DNA of 64,000 nucleotides from Gemmatimonadaceae bacterium (GTDB taxonomy: Bacteria > Gemmatimonadota > Gemmatimonadetes > Gemmatimonadales > Gemmatimonadaceae): NCBI GenBank assembly GCA_025934775.1, contig JAICWO010000008.1, forward strand, positions 186,001 to 250,000. Reading direction: 5' to 3'. The translations under genes and the position numbers were made by a program. Of the stretch, positions 19,432 to 44,160 are shown piece by piece. The notes under the pieces are model-generated. The model saw only the letters and a list, made by a program, of their open reading frames with translations. It searched no databases and was not told the origin of the DNA. Each line of letters opens with the position of its first letter. Within the stretch, counting starts at the first letter, position 1.

Positions 19432-19461
19432 AGCTCCCGAGCAATCCTCGGGGGCTTTTTT
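19432..19461 (+). terminator. Attenuator terminator upstream of prephenate dehydratase
   Basis: GCTCCCGAG (19433-19441) pairs with CTCGGGGGC (19447-19455), with loop CAATC and T6 immediately after. The 5' arm AGCTCCC (19432-19438) can instead pair with GGGAGCT at 19379-19385, which lies inside the leader-peptide gene just after the Phe codons. That gives mutually exclusive antiterminator and terminator folds. The dehydratase start is 28 bases downstream of the T run. Confidence 0.82.
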
Positions 19462-19489
19462 GTTTTTCCCACTCTCCAATTCGATTCTG

Positions 19490-20173
19490 ATGCAGACCTC
19501 ATTGCTCCGCGTGGCGTACCAAGGCGTGCCCGGCGCCTTCGGTGAACAAGCAGTCCGGCGCGTCTGGCGCGACGGCGCGCTCGCGCGGCCCATGCCGACG
19601 TTCGCCGCCGCCCTCGAAGCGCTGCTCATCGGTGCCGCGGAATGGGCCGTGATCCCGGTGTGGAACTCGATCATCGGCCGCGTCGCGCCCGGATGCGACG
19701 CGCTCGAGCGGTATCCGCGGGTGATCGAACAGGTGAATGACGTCGACGTGCCGGTGCATCAGTGCCTGGTCGCGATCCCTGGCACCACGATCGACGACCT
19801 ACGGTGGGTCGGCAGCCACCCGGCGGCCCTCGCGCAGTGCGCGCGCTTCTTCGAGGCGCATCCGGCGCTCGCTCCCGTCACCGCGTTCGACACGGCGGGC
19901 TCGGCGCTCGAGCTCGCGAGCTACGGCGAACACACGCTCAACGCCGATGAACGGTGGTACGCACGGCTCGGTGCCGAGCGGCCGTCGCAGCTCGCGGCGA
20001 TCTGCAGCGAGTACGCCGCGCGGAAGTACAGACTCGCCGTGCTCGCGCGCGACGTCCACGACGAGCCCGGGAACGTCACACGATTCGCGGTCGTCTGCGC
20101 GAATGCGACCGCTCCCGCGCCGCGAGCCCAGCGTTCGACTAGACGGGCTTCGTCCGCGGCAGCGTCAGCGTGA
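19490..20173 (+). CDS. pheA: Prephenate dehydratase without ACT regulatory domain
   Basis: A 227-residue enzyme for the step prephenate to phenylpyruvate in phenylalanine synthesis. It begins MQTSLLRVAYQGVPGAFGEQAV, the standard start of the dehydratase domain. It has the catalytic TRF motif at residues 197-199 (NVTRFAVV) and a TAFDTAGSALEL segment. In the usual PxENS motif it reads IPVWNSIIG, with Trp in place of Glu. The sequence stops about 28 residues after the catalytic domain, so the C-terminal ACT domain that gives Phe feedback inhibition is absent. Control may rest on the upstream attenuator. Its 3' end overlaps the convergent histidine kinase by 35 bases. Confidence 0.88.
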   Translation: MQTSLLRVAYQGVPGAFGEQAVRRVWRDGALARPMPTFAAALEALLIGAAEWAVIPVWNSIIGRVAPGCDALERYPRVIEQVNDVDVPVHQCLVAIPGTTIDDLRWVGSHPAALAQCARFFEAHPALAPVTAFDTAGSALELASYGEHTLNADERWYARLGAERPSQLAAICSEYAARKYRLAVLARDVHDEPGNVTRFAVVCANATAPAPRAQRSTRRASSAAASA

Positions 20174-21431
20174 AGTGCGAGCCGGCGCCGAGCATGCTCT
20201 CGGCGGTGAGCTCGCCGTGCATCATCCGCGCGAGATCGCGGCTGATCGCGAGGCCGAGTCCAACGCCCTCGTCGCGCGTGAAGCGCTTGTTCACCTGCAC
20301 GAACGGCTCGAAGATCGCCTCGAGCTTGTCGGCCGGAATTCCACGGCCGGTGTCGCGCACGTGAAAGTACACCGTTGACGCATCGGCCTCGCAGTCGATC
20401 GAGATCTCGCCGCCGTGGTCCGTGAACTTGATCGCGTTCGACACGAGGTTGATCAGGATCTGTCGCGTTTTCTCTTCGTCGGCCCACGCGGTCAGCCCCG
20501 GATCGCATCGTCCGCGCATGTACCGAATACCCTTGCTCGCCACCTGCGGCTCGGTGAGCGCGTCGAGCACGGCGAGCGTCTCGTTCACCGAGAGGTCGCG
20601 GGGCTCGAGCGAGACGTGTCCGGTCTCGAGCCGCGCGAAATTCATGATGTCGTTGATCAATCCGAGCAGATGTCGCTGGCTGCGGCGGATCTTTCGAAGA
20701 TCCTCGAGCTGCGCGGGTGTCACCGGACCGCGGAGGCCCATCTCGATCAGCTCCGCGTAGCCGCCGATCGCGTTGAGCGGCGTGCGGAGCTCGTGGCTCA
20801 TCACCGCGAGAAAATCCGTCTTCGCCTTGTTCGATGCTTCCGCCTCCGAGCGCGCGAGCTGCGCCTCGGCGAGCTCCCGCGCCGCGGCCTCCGCCTGTTT
20901 GCGCTCGGTGATGTCGACCGCGAAGACGACGACCATCTGAAGCGCGCCCCGGTCGTCGTACCGATTCGCGGTGTTCACGAAGAACCAGCGGATCGCCCCG
21001 TCGTGCGTGCGCAGCGGGAGCTCGAAGCCGGTGACGTCGCCATGCGCGACTTCGGCGATCAGCCGCTGCGCGGAGTGTCGATACCCGTCCGGAACGACGG
21101 TCGTCCACCACGGCGCGTTCTCGAGCGTCCGCGAGCGATAGCCGAGGATCGCCCGGCCGGCGTCGTTCGCGAAGAGAATCCGCCCGTCGGGGCTGATCTC
21201 GCAGACGAGCGCCGGGCACCGATTTATGAGATCTCGAAAACGCGCCTCGGACTGGAGGATCGCCTGCTGCGCGCTCTTGAGCACGATCGTCGTCGCGGAC
21301 GCATGGTCCACCACGGCGTCGAGCTCGCCCGCGCCGAGGCGCTGCAGCTCCCGTTCGGTATCGCTCAGCCGCCGGATCAGCCGTTCGACTTCCGGCGTGT
21401 ACTCGAGCGGCGCGATCTCTTCGGCGCTCAT
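20139..21431 (-). CDS. PAS-domain sensor histidine kinase linked to kaiBC
   Basis: A 430-residue soluble histidine kinase. A short N-terminal coiled-coil-like part is followed by one PAS/PAC domain (about 62-178, with SPDGRILFANDAGRAILGY and the PAC-type VFAVDITERK). A HisKA dimerisation domain has His213 in MSHELRTPLN. A complete HATPase domain follows (ILINLVSNAIKF, DTGRGIP, GVGLGLAI). No membrane segment or receiver domain is present. It overlaps or abuts the kaiB stop (GTG start possible at 21443, ATG at 21431), so it is the third gene of the kai operon and probably the output kinase, a role filled by SasA in cyanobacteria. Confidence 0.92.
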   Translation of the reverse strand: MSAEEIAPLEYTPEVERLIRRLSDTERELQRLGAGELDAVVDHASATTIVLKSAQQAILQSEARFRDLINRCPALVCEISPDGRILFANDAGRAILGYRSRTLENAPWWTTVVPDGYRHSAQRLIAEVAHGDVTGFELPLRTHDGAIRWFFVNTANRYDDRGALQMVVVFAVDITERKQAEAAARELAEAQLARSEAEASNKAKTDFLAVMSHELRTPLNAIGGYAELIEMGLRGPVTPAQLEDLRKIRRSQRHLLGLINDIMNFARLETGHVSLEPRDLSVNETLAVLDALTEPQVASKGIRYMRGRCDPGLTAWADEEKTRQILINLVSNAIKFTDHGGEISIDCEADASTVYFHVRDTGRGIPADKLEAIFEPFVQVNKRFTRDEGVGLGLAISRDLARMMHGELTAESMLGAGSHFTLTLPRTKPV

Positions 21432-21435
21432 GCGC

Positions 21436-21759
21436 TCACGCACGGTCGGCGGACGAACGCTCGAGCCCCAGCGCGGCGCTCACGTTCATCGACTCACTCA
21501 ACGATCCAACGATCGTCCGCCGCGGCTGCGGCGACACCCGGAGCAGCGTCGGCGTGACGAACACGCCCTCCTCGATCGCGCGCATCGGCTCCCGCAGGCA
21601 GTCGACGACCTCCACCTCGTAGCTCCCCGGCGGATAGGTGCCGAGCAGGCGCGAGAGGTTCGCTCGTGCGGCGGTGGAATTCGGCCCGTCGCCCGCGACG
21701 TACAAGCGCAGCACGAGTCGCGGCTCTTCGGCCGGCACGGACGACCGGTCAGGCGACAT
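21436..21759 (-). CDS. kaiB: KaiB-family clock protein
   Basis: A 107-residue thioredoxin-like KaiB protein. The diagnostic strands and loops are present: LVLRLYVAGDGPNSTAARAN, VEVVDCLREPMRAIEEGVFVTPTLL and RRTIVGSLSE. The VTPTLL segment precedes the region that refolds when KaiB binds KaiC in the cyanobacterial clock. Its start overlaps the kaiC stop by 11 bases, so it is translated with kaiC. It should bind the KaiC CI ring and act as a brake or timing element; this is inferred from the family. Confidence 0.93.
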   Translation of the reverse strand: MSPDRSSVPAEEPRLVLRLYVAGDGPNSTAARANLSRLLGTYPPGSYEVEVVDCLREPMRAIEEGVFVTPTLLRVSPQPRRTIVGSLSESMNVSAALGLERSSADRA

Positions 21760-23449
21760 CGGCCGGGTCAGGGTCGGCGTGGCGCAGTCGGCGCAAGTCG
21801 CGACGGTCAGAGCTGCGGCGTCCGTCCCACCGCGCCTGCTCGGCGCGGAGCGCGTCCAGCTCGCGTTCGAGCTCGGAGCGCCGCAGGTCCAGCTCCGCCA
21901 TGCGGCGCGCCTCCGTCTCCGCCAGCATCGCCTCGTGTTCCCAGCGCGCGGTGCCGACCAGTACTTCGCCGCCCGCGGTGTACACGTCGGTGAGTGTGAG
22001 ACCGTGGGAGGAGAGCACGAGCTCGCGCACCTGGTTGGAATGCGCCATGCCGCGCGACTTCACGATCGTCAGCGTGCGATTCCGTTCGCCCGCGCGCACG
22101 AGATACGACAGGTGAATCCACGTGTCCGCGATCGTCGAGATCTGCGTCTCGGTGGTTTCGGCCAACGCGTTCTCGCTCGCGACGAGGCTGGTGCACAGGA
22201 CGGTGATGCCGTTGGCGCGCGCGTAGTCGAGGAGGCGCAGCGATCCGTGTACGGCGGCGATCACGCCGCCCGTCTTGTTGAGCGCCGAGATCGGATCGAT
22301 GACGAGCGAACGAGGCGCGCACTCGCGAATGCGCGCGCGCACGGCCATGAAGTGCTCTTCCGCGCTGCGCGCCTCGGTGCGCACGGACATCATCTCGAGC
22401 AGCCCCGCGTCGACGTGCGGCTGGAGATCCAGTCCCACCGACCTCAAGTTGCGAACGATCTGACTGCTCGCCTCGTCGAAGCTCACGTACAGCGCGCGCT
22501 CGCCGCGCTCGCAGGCGGCAGCCGTGAACGAGCCGGCGAGCGTCGTCTTCGCGGTCCCCGGCGCGCCAGAGATCAGCACGCCGGAACCGCGGTAGTATCC
22601 GCCGTCGAGCATCGTGTCGAGCCGCGCCACGCCGCTCGGCACGCGCTCGTCGGAGACGTCGTACTCCAACGCGGTCGGCTCGAAGACGGACACCTGCACG
22701 CCGCTCGCCGTGATGATCATCGGGAATTCATTCTCGGCGAATCCCGATCCGCGATACTTGAGCACGCGCACCCCGCGCAGCGACACGCGATCGATCATCC
22801 GGTGATGGAACGCGACCACCGTGTCGACCATGAATTGCATGAACGCGTACCGCTCGGTCGAGAGCCGGTCGCCCTCGAAGGCCTTCGCGGTGATGATCGC
22901 CGTGAGCCCCAGCTCGTGCAGCCAATCCTGAAGGCGATAGATCTCGCGGCGCTCTTTGCCGGGATCATCGAGGATCGTGAGCAGGACGTCGATGCCGTCG
23001 AAGACGATGCGCTTGGCATTCATCGCCTTCGCCTTGGCGGCGAGCCCGGCGAGCATCCCCTGAATGTCGAAGTCGCCGCCCTGAATCACGGTCGACGACA
23101 GCCGGGCATCGAGGAAGAAGAGCTGCTCACGTTCGAGGCCCGGCAAGTCCCAGCCGAACGTCGCCGCGTTGGCGACGATCTGTCGCGTGTTCTCCTCGAA
23201 CGCGACGAAGATGCCGGGCTCGCGTCCTTCGCGTGCACCGTTCACGAGACACTCGAGCGCGAAGACGGTTTTGCCGGCGCCCGGTGCGCCGAAAATCAGC
23301 GTCGTCCGTCCGCTCGGGAGCCCGCCGCGGGTGATCTCGTCGAAGCCGGCGATGCCGGTTCGGCATTTGTGAATGGGCCCTTCTGAGGTACCTGCACTGC
23401 CGGCGGATTCGCCGCCCTGCGCCGCCGGGTCACTGTGGGGTGCCCGCAT
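21749..23449 (-). CDS. kaiC: KaiC-family double-ATPase clock protein with C-terminal coiled coil
   Basis: A 566-residue KaiC homologue with two RecA-like ATPase domains. CI has Walker A GAPGAGKT (54-61) and the Glu pair in FVAFEENTRQ (85-86). CII has Walker A GAPGTAKT (295-302). The CII phosphorylation site is conserved as QISTIADT (Ser438/Thr439), with Thr433 five residues before. In CII the usual catalytic Glu-Glu is Asp325-Glu326. Residues about 500-545 are charged heptad-like sequence (ELDLRRSELERELDALRAEQ), predicted coiled coil, in place of the cyanobacterial A-loop tail. No kaiA is present in the window. KaiB and a PAS kinase follow in one operon. This fits the KaiA-independent KaiC2-like group. 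Confidence 0.93.
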   Translation of the reverse strand: MRAPHSDPAAQGGESAGSAGTSEGPIHKCRTGIAGFDEITRGGLPSGRTTLIFGAPGAGKTVFALECLVNGAREGREPGIFVAFEENTRQIVANAATFGWDLPGLEREQLFFLDARLSSTVIQGGDFDIQGMLAGLAAKAKAMNAKRIVFDGIDVLLTILDDPGKERREIYRLQDWLHELGLTAIITAKAFEGDRLSTERYAFMQFMVDTVVAFHHRMIDRVSLRGVRVLKYRGSGFAENEFPMIITASGVQVSVFEPTALEYDVSDERVPSGVARLDTMLDGGYYRGSGVLISGAPGTAKTTLAGSFTAAACERGERALYVSFDEASSQIVRNLRSVGLDLQPHVDAGLLEMMSVRTEARSAEEHFMAVRARIRECAPRSLVIDPISALNKTGGVIAAVHGSLRLLDYARANGITVLCTSLVASENALAETTETQISTIADTWIHLSYLVRAGERNRTLTIVKSRGMAHSNQVRELVLSSHGLTLTDVYTAGGEVLVGTARWEHEAMLAETEARRMAELDLRRSELERELDALRAEQARWDGRRSSDRRDLRRLRHADPDPADVA

Positions 23450-41958: not shown

Positions 41959-42693
41959 ATGACTGAATCCACCGCAGCCGCCGCCCCCAAGCCCACGCAG
42001 CCGTCGCTGTTCGACGACTTCCTCGAGATGTTCTATCGCCCCGCCGACGTGTTTCGCCGCCGGCAGAACAGCAGCGTCTGGCCGCCGCTGCTGATCGTGG
42101 CGATCTCGATCGCCGTCATCTTCATCTTCACGTACAACGCGCTCCAGCCCGTGTTCGACGCGGAGTTCACGCGCGCGACGACCGCGGCGATGCGCAAGAA
42201 TCCGCAGATCACGCAGGAGATGATGGACAAGATGCGCGGCGCGCAGGAGAACATCGCGCGCTACGGCCTCGGCGTCATCATGCTCGTGACGATGTGGGTG
42301 ATGGGTACCGTGGCGTGGCTCGTCGGAAAGCTCGTCGGCGCCAAGCAGTCGTATCACGCCGCGCTCGTCGTCGCCGCGTGGTCGTACGTGCCGCGCATCG
42401 TCGGCGTCCTGATCAACGGGATCGAGGGGCTCGTCATGGATCCGTCGAAGATGACGGGGCAGCTGGCGCTCTCGCTCAGCCCCGCGCGCTTTCTCGATCC
42501 GGACACCGCGAACCCGCTCGTGCTGCAGCTGCTCGGCCGCCTCGATCTCATCACGATCTGGGTGACCGTGCTGCTGTCGATCGGACTCTACGCGACGGGG
42601 AAAGTCTCCAAGGGCAAAGCGGTGACGTTCGGGATCTTGATCTTCATCATCGGCTCGCTGCCGGCGCTGCGGCAGGGATTCGTCGCGATGTGA
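41959..42693 (+). CDS. Yip1-domain membrane protein
   Basis: A 244-residue protein with an N-terminal soluble segment (PSLFDDFLEMFYRPADVFRR, typical of bacterial Yip1 proteins) and about five membrane helices between residues 40 and 240. The long loop 65-95 is Met- and charged-rich. Function in bacteria is unknown. It begins 47 bases after the slipin stop and may share its transcript. Confidence 0.85.
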   Translation: MTESTAAAAPKPTQPSLFDDFLEMFYRPADVFRRRQNSSVWPPLLIVAISIAVIFIFTYNALQPVFDAEFTRATTAAMRKNPQITQEMMDKMRGAQENIARYGLGVIMLVTMWVMGTVAWLVGKLVGAKQSYHAALVVAAWSYVPRIVGVLINGIEGLVMDPSKMTGQLALSLSPARFLDPDTANPLVLQLLGRLDLITIWVTVLLSIGLYATGKVSKGKAVTFGILIFIIGSLPALRQGFVAM

Positions 42694-42710
42694 TTCGAAG
42701 CGAGCGGGCT

Positions 42711-42808
42711 GCACGAGCGACGGCACGCTGGGCGCTCGTGCATCCCCCGCGTCGGAGAACGACCCAGCGTCGGATTCTCCGTCGCGCGCCGTGCTCCCGG
42801 TAGCACGG
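42711..42808. terminator. Cluster of hairpins between convergent Yip1 and GGDEF genes
   Basis: Three stems follow one another: GCACGAGCG with CGCTCGTGC (42711-42719/42733-42741), CGGAGAA with TTCTCCG around 42755-42783, and CCGTGCT with AGCACGG (42789-42795/42102-offset on the same line, ending 42808). None has a T run. The position between convergent genes suggests transcript 3' ends. Confidence 0.4.
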
Positions 42809-42879
42809 CAGCTCGGATGGTGCGGGTGTGAATGCGCGACAATATGCGTGTCGCGCGCGCGAGCGAAAGGTGCCGCGCG

Positions 42880-44160
42880 TCACTCCGCCAACGCGAACGT
42901 CGACCACGGGGGCGTCGCGTTGGAGCGAATGCCCGGCGCCCACATCACCACGCGATCGCGGCCGAGTCGCTTGGCGACGTACAGCGCTTCATCCGCGCGC
43001 GCGCGCAGTGCGCCCGCGATGTGCGGATCGATCACCTGCTCGGCGGCGATGCCGATGCTCACCGTGACTTCGTGACGGCCCCGCACCGTGCGAAAGCGAT
43101 GCGCGCGCACGGTCGCCATCACGCGCTCGGCGACCACGCCCGCCATCTCGCTGTCCGCGTTGGGCAGGAGAATGACGAACTCCTCGCCGCCGACGCGCGC
43201 CACGACGTCGCCGACGCGCGACGACTGCGTGAGCAGGTCCGCGACCTCGCGCAGCACCGCATCGCCGGCGAGGTGGCCGGCGGTGTCGTTGACCGCCTTG
43301 AAGTGATCGATGTCGATGGCGAGCAGCGCGAGCTCGCCGCCGCGGCGCATCGCCGCCGCGACCGTCTGCATCAGCACCTGCTCGAAGCCGCGGCGGTTGA
43401 AGCAGTGCGTGAGCGGATCGGTCATCACCATCGTCGCGAGCTCGGAGCGCAGATGATTGTAGGCCCGTCCGAGCAGCGTGATGCCGTCGGGCTCGCGATT
43501 CCGCTCGTCGACGAAGGTGCGCGAGAAGTCGCCGCGCTGCGCGTTGGTGAACAGCTCGACGAGCGACGCCAGGCGTCGGTTGGCGCTCGCCTGGAGCGCC
43601 ATGCCGTTGAGCGCCACGAGGAGATAGAGCGCCAGGAGCCACGCTTGCTCCGTCCACTCGACCGGCACGCCGCGCGAGTGCGCGGTCGCGAGCAGCGCGG
43701 CGTAGGCGGCGACGGAGCCGACGACGACGGTGAGCGCCGGCGTCCGGCCGAAGAACATCTGCGTGAACTGTAATGCCAAAAGACTCAATAGCAGCGCGCG
43801 CGCGTAATACGCCGCGGGCGTCATCAGCGCGACGGCGGCGAAGATCGTGACGACGTCCGCCAGCGCGAGCGCGAGCAGCGCGGCGCGCCCGACGCGGTGC
43901 CGCCGCTCGATGCGAAGCGTGAGCAGCGCGACGAGCGCGATGTACGCCGGCACGATCACGAAGATCGGCCACGCCGGTCCGGCGATGGTGCCGGTCGCGC
44001 GGAGCACCGCGGCCACCACGCCCAACCCGAGCGCCATGACGAGACGGCGACTCGATTGCCAGACGATGATCTCGGAGTTGTTGAGCAGCCCGGCGCGTGT
44101 CGCGTGAGGCGAGCGGCCGAGCATCCGGCCGAACGACGCGGGAGTGGTATGATGCCCCAT
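42880..44160 (-). CDS. Membrane-bound diguanylate cyclase (GGDEF)
   Basis: A 426-residue protein starting MGHHTTPASFGRMLG. About six membrane helices occupy residues 35-195, then a GGDEF domain covers about 255-415. The active site reads GGEEF (about 322-326), which is catalytically competent in the family, and the domain has DPLTHCFNRRGFE and IDIDHFKAVND. An inhibitory RxxD site is not obvious before the GGEEF. It makes cyclic di-GMP from two GTP. The frame upstream of the start is non-coding leader. Confidence 0.92.
   Translation of the reverse strand: MGHHTTPASFGRMLGRSPHATRAGLLNNSEIIVWQSSRRLVMALGLGVVAAVLRATGTIAGPAWPIFVIVPAYIALVALLTLRIERRHRVGRAALLALALADVVTIFAAVALMTPAAYYARALLLSLLALQFTQMFFGRTPALTVVVGSVAAYAALLATAHSRGVPVEWTEQAWLLALYLLVALNGMALQASANRRLASLVELFTNAQRGDFSRTFVDERNREPDGITLLGRAYNHLRSELATMVMTDPLTHCFNRRGFEQVLMQTVAAAMRRGGELALLAIDIDHFKAVNDTAGHLAGDAVLREVADLLTQSSRVGDVVARVGGEEFVILLPNADSEMAGVVAERVMATVRAHRFRTVRGRHEVTVSIGIAAEQVIDPHIAGALRARADEALYVAKRLGRDRVVMWAPGIRSNATPPWSTFALAE

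Follow-up and report, generated by a model that had tools for sequence, protein, structure and literature searches.

A kaiB-linked N-terminal element on the histidine kinase of a KaiA-less kaiC–kaiB operon in a Gemmatimonadaceae bacterium: a candidate output adaptor

Operons in which kaiC and kaiB are followed by a gene for a PAS histidine kinase are known from R. palustris, for which KaiC-dependent fitness in cycling light has been reported, and from Rhodobacter (Cereibacter) sphaeroides (PMC4794148). In the latter, a coiled-coil-tailed KaiC dodecamer forms an hourglass driven by ATP/ADP (PMC10076222), the KaiA-independent purple-bacterial timer that the original prediction for the present locus had invoked. 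More widely, De Luca et al. (2011, PMC3164672) noted that nearly every non-cyanobacterial cluster has a histidine kinase or GGDEF/EAL gene directly behind kaiC or kaiB, and signatures have been defined for KaiC1, KaiC2 and KaiC3 (PMC5520375). An operon of this type outside cyanobacteria, which the prediction had placed in the foreground, is not new: in gene order, the operon described here is a further case of the architecture already published for R. palustris and R. sphaeroides. Here we draw attention to the N-terminus of its kinase. From sequence comparison, we put at roughly 57% the probability that the operon encodes a KaiA-independent KaiB–KaiC module with a dedicated output kinase, on which an N-terminal element acts as the adaptor that reads KaiBC.

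Gene layout and type of KaiC

The window, by which we mean the whole 64,000-nucleotide stretch analysed (G000:C35:186001-250000), comes from the genome of a soil-type bacterium, 4.9 Mb in size and 99% complete. The three overlapping genes predicted at 20139-23449 are indeed there, as intact minus-strand reading frames with successive overlaps of 11 bp and 8 bp. The operon ends with the kinase gene, which faces a convergent prephenate dehydratase gene (19460-20173); promoter and terminator scans gave results no better than those from shuffled sequence. The features of the first two genes are as follows.

21749..23449, minus strand: kaiC, 566 aa, with two RecA/KaiC ATPase domains (CI, CII), from family scores and tree
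23267..23290, minus strand: CI Walker A motif GAPGAGKT, residues 54-61
22472..22477, minus strand: CII catalytic pair Asp325-Glu326, equivalent to E317-E318 of S. elongatus, the second Glu being retained
22133..22138, minus strand: CII phosphosites Ser438-Thr439, ETTETQISTIADTW
21752..21979, minus strand: C-terminal tail of KaiC, residues 491-566, homologous to the coiled-coil tail of R. sphaeroides KaiC
21436..21759, minus strand: kaiB, 107 aa, overlapping kaiC by 11 bp

A genome-wide search gave no detectable match to kaiA, in agreement with the prediction; kaiC and kaiB without kaiA is the gene content expected of a KaiBC hourglass timer. No photosynthetic reaction centre was detected in the source genome. 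KaiB matches number only two, both of them stand-alone KaiB genes. A second kai locus, on another contig (G000:C3, about 158800-162300; L011 5768-9275), has the order kaiB-kaiC-kinase and a tail-less KaiC of cyanobacterial type, while two more double-domain KaiC-family proteins are encoded close together, near kinase genes and without KaiB, at G000:C41:34394-35740 and 42294-43670.

The scores of all three proteins against their families are far above chance level. The window KaiC scores well against the Pfam KaiC ATPase family (1.2e-88, two domains) and against NCBIfam PRK09302, 'circadian clock protein KaiC' (515 bits, cut-off 408), and its CII phosphosites are as originally described. Among solved structures, its best relative is KaiC of R. 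sphaeroides (8dba, E 6e-116), with an identity of 41.5% to the KD131 protein, and its closest named relative is encoded in a Gemmatimonas MAG (L012, 66% identity). In a FastTree phylogeny of about 95 KaiC sequences, the window and L012 proteins pair with support 1.0, and their large clade (support 0.948) has as its sister the R. sphaeroides/KaiC2 group with its relatives (support 0.992 for the R. sphaeroides group), and stands separate from both the cyanobacterial KaiC and the type found at the second kai locus. On the window side of this split, most proteins have Ser-Thr phosphosites, and those in the part that holds the window KaiC have Asp-Glu as their CII pair. With 76 residues beyond position 490, the protein has the C-terminal extension of ~50 aa after the A loop that marks KaiC2, and it shares Ser-Thr phosphosites with KaiC1 and KaiC3, but it neither groups with the cyanobacterial-type proteins nor lacks a long tail as those do. 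Because its phosphosites are Ser-Thr rather than Ser-Ser, its CII pair Asp-Glu rather than Glu-Glu, and its clade sister to that of R. sphaeroides KaiC rather than part of it, it is not a KaiC2 of the purple-bacterial type. Placement among KaiC1, KaiC2 and KaiC3 thus bears out a position beside the purple-bacterial proteins within a tail-bearing clade, though not membership in KaiC2 itself, and on these sequence characters we assign the protein to a tail-bearing superclade without calling it KaiC2 in the strict sense.

The predicted coiled-coil-like extension stands in part: the alignment to 8dba runs into the tail, as far as query residue 541, which supports homology to the R. sphaeroides tail, whereas heptad periodicity in this short tail is not significant (p about 0.12). 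The tail is 21 residues shorter than that of the L012 protein, the difference lying between GTARW and LRH. Such shortening could be taken to mark the operon as a non-functional remnant, but this seems very improbable, as the three frames are all intact, catalytic motifs included, and L012 and L093, the loci most closely related, have kept the same operon.

Elsewhere in the tree, a monophyletic subclade of tail-bearing KaiCs (support 0.986; including L052, L055, L061, L046 and L049) has Asp-Ser as its CII pair, and some of its members also lack the second phosphosite (SK, SA, SM). These proteins are possible candidates for absence of the CII autokinase.

The kinase and its N-terminal element

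KaiB carries the VTPTLL signature noted earlier and scores above the cut-off of PF07689 (3.1e-19) and under the NCBIfam cut-offs for cyanobacterial KaiB. The soluble PAS kinase of the original prediction was likewise recovered with all its domains (HATPase_c 8.9e-29, HisKA 9.5e-19, PAS_4 7.7e-18); its gene starts with GTG, with an ATG four codons downstream.

20139..21443, minus strand: soluble PAS histidine kinase, 434 aa, overlapping kaiB by 8 bp
21234..21383, minus strand: N-terminal kaiB-linked element (type II), kinase residues 21-70, a predicted helix–beta hairpin–helix, with Asp42 invariant in the alignment
20895..21221, minus strand: PAS domain, residues 75-183
20619..20825, minus strand: HisKA dimerisation/phosphoacceptor domain with SHELRTPL box, residues 207-275
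20151..20480, minus strand: HATPase_c catalytic domain, residues 322-431

The element follows a short leader and spans 50 alignment columns, with one invariant Asp (kinase Asp42), one near-invariant Leu and the consensus L-x3-L...AL-x2-G-x-VDAVVD...LL-x2-AQ-x-AL. In the AF2 model (pLDDT about 88-95) it consists of a helix (17-36), two strands (43-46 and 51-54) and a second helix (56-74), with helix at either end and a direct continuation into the PAS N-cap. A Crp-type protein that carries the element is modelled, at lower confidence, with a similar arrangement (helix 32-39, strands 45-47 and 54-56, helix 58-66). Scans of the element with Pfam and NCBIfam gave chance scores only and no model, profile searches of the PDB with both forms of the element gave nothing credible, and a Foldseek search with the kinase model led to PAS/LOV and HisKA kinases of the usual kind, with no match particular to the element. 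We did not find the element described in the open-licence part of PMC, and neither Pfam nor NCBIfam has a model for it.

A diverged form, type I, begins the kaiBC kinase of R. sphaeroides KD131 (ELRRRLHEAEETLKAIRQGDVDALVVG...), and the two forms are related with an hhalign probability of 97%. Type I is also found after tandem or KaiC2-linked kaiB genes (L080, L081, L143, L145, L155, L156 and others). All type I matches in the genomes searched adjoin kaiB, a result to be read with the reservation that most training sequences are among them, only G084, G085 and G089 being independent. In 298 Gemmatimonadota genomes and 34 kai-bearing genomes, type I did not prove to be a widespread motif of PAS kinases. 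One 379 aa protein encoded after kaiB (L140 6996-8132) has two type I copies.

The element is fused to kinases, hybrid kinases, GGDEF-EAL proteins and Crp-type regulators. Domain scans of 61 carriers found HATPase_c in 32, Response_reg in 23, a Crp HTH in 17, and GGDEF and EAL in five each, with no Pfam model over the element itself in any of them. A Crp-type HTH regulator replaces the kinase after kaiB in L023, L026, L027, L030, L031, L036, L039-L041, L043, L045, L059, L062 and L087. In a Chloroflexi MAG (L053 425-2794), KaiC and KaiB read through as one fusion ORF and the next gene has a doubled element; and the same kaiC-kaiB-element-kinase operon is found on a contig binned as archaeal (L013 4923-10138, Methanotrichaceae MAG), by transfer or through mis-binning.

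Linkage of the element to kaiB

In nearly all of 80 loci compared, the gene that follows kaiB had the same N-terminus. An iterative HMM search started from eight seeds then placed the element behind kaiB, in the same orientation, in 66 of the 71 loci that left 350 bp or more for it, across many phyla and at a median distance of 66 bp from the KaiB domain. Among the five loci without an HMM match, a degenerate form (L057) and a frameshifted form (L088) were recognised by eye. Two loci with a tail-bearing KaiC in which no kaiB was found (L029, L037) also lack the element, as do 17 kinases that lie in the locus flanks without adjoining kaiB. The PAS kinase of the second kai locus in the source genome is without the element as well.

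Searches of whole genomes gave the same picture. A match was present in 47 of 48 kai-bearing genomes, nearly always as one strong match at the kai operon; of three extra strong matches, two lie in second kaiC–kaiB operons (L137, L138) and the third (L139) has no kai gene within 14 kb. Across 298 Gemmatimonadota genomes, 28 of them KaiB-positive, 10 of the 11 element matches adjoin kaiB (Fisher p about 1e-10 for element and kaiB by genome), with only the top ~20-23 candidates per genome scored in the phylum scans. Five of these 11 are in genomes that had supplied sequences for the profile; among the other six, five are kaiB-linked and one, in G234 (L141), is not. Where a KaiB-positive Gemmatimonadota genome lacks the element, its KaiC is mostly of the other type, which has no tail. 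The two unlinked cases (L139 4529-7279 and L141 3390-8150) are PAS kinases with a degenerate element and no kai gene nearby; they could be orphan readers, or else they count against kai specificity. When plasmids were searched with the N-terminus of the window kinase or with the L017 element, no additional linked copies came to light, and a Nostoc match had no neighbouring kai genes. In Phycisphaerae (L083-L086), KaiC is tail-less and the third genes still carry the element, so the tail is probably not its partner.

Since the genes overlap and the N-terminal element is kaiB-linked across phyla, the kinase very likely belongs to the Kai system, as originally predicted. The element is a good candidate for the reader of the timer because it starts the third gene of most related kaiC–kaiB operons, whatever that gene encodes. 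The linkage to kaiB may, however, stem from operon inheritance. Across 62 loci, the pairwise distances of the element correlate with KaiC at r 0.77 and with KaiB at r 0.62, compared with 0.59 and 0.47 for the 150 residues that follow it, and the element correlates with those same residues of its own protein at r 0.61. KaiC divergence is thus mirrored more closely by the element than by the remainder of its protein, an observation that is only suggestive because the sequences are related.

An alternative is that the element is a mere dimerisation or signal-relay helix inherited with the operon, the kinase touching KaiBC elsewhere or nowhere. Its helical flanks and its continuation into the PAS N-cap would fit such a role, as would whole-operon inheritance, under which all distances correlate. 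Against it, the element persists where a Crp-type regulator or GGDEF-EAL protein makes up the remaining protein, is missing from the other PAS kinases of these flanks and follows KaiC better than its own protein, and we regard this explanation as unlikely.

Proposed output route and comparison with known systems

We suggest that the element is most likely the contact with KaiB or with the KaiB–KaiC ring. KaiC would autophosphorylate Ser438/Thr439 without KaiA, with the ATP/ADP ratio of the cell fixing the balance, as it does in R. sphaeroides, and fold-switched KaiB would bind CI in its post-hydrolysis state. The helix–beta hairpin–helix at the kinase N-terminus would then dock on KaiB or the KaiB–KaiC ring, and the docked state could pass via the PAS domain to the HisKA/HATPase core, which would phosphorylate an unlinked response regulator. 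A role for the kinase in the opposite direction, with PAS sensing redox or a ligand and signalling to KaiBC, has a precedent in the redox-input role proposed for the R. sphaeroides kaiBC kinase (PMC5520375). We consider it improbable here, given that no route from the kinases to KaiC is evident and that many relatives hold in the same place a DNA-binding Crp-type protein, by nature an output.

The adaptor reading is compatible with a further proposal, that the module is a sensor of energy or stress, switched by ATP/ADP, rather than a timer. The host is without a reaction centre and has no known need for day–night timing, a sister subclade has lost the second CII glutamate and in some members phosphosites, and the Legionella kai operon works in the stress response, as cited in PMC5520375. 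The window KaiC itself retains CII Glu326 and both phosphosites, and we hold the sensor proposal to be a serious possibility, if a tentative one.

Related operons carry the element on hybrid kinases, GGDEF-EAL proteins and Crp-type DNA binders, and it may for this reason be regarded as an interchangeable output adaptor. Whether its two related forms make up a general docking part, linking non-cyanobacterial tail-type KaiB–KaiC rings to interchangeable outputs (kinases, cyclic-di-GMP enzymes, Crp-type transcription factors) in bacteria and some archaeal MAGs, is in our estimate an evenly balanced question. If so, a small portable element, adjoining kaiB in many phyla and borne by four kinds of output protein, would offer one answer to how KaiBC signals to the cell without KaiA and SasA, and it would serve as a marker for KaiBC outputs, including those of R. 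sphaeroides, whose core hourglass has been reconstituted.

Among described systems, the R. palustris operon (PMC4794148) has the same architecture in a phototrophic host, a likeness drawn from its published description rather than from sequence. R. sphaeroides KD131 (PMC10076222; L144) shares the gene order, the KaiC tail, the lack of KaiA and a kinase that starts with the element, there of type I, and differs in its Ser-Ser phosphosites, its CII Glu-Glu pair, its separate KaiC clade and its HWE-type kinase. As we read them, De Luca et al. (PMC3164672) confine their N-terminal consensus to the kinases of the kaiB-less group (RtaNt, described as SasA/KaiB-like) and give none for kaiB-linked genes. 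Cyanobacterial SasA is an output kinase that reads KaiC through an N-terminal domain which is KaiB-like, whereas the window kinase has no KaiB-like domain; the element would accordingly be the counterpart of the SasA domain in role, not in fold.
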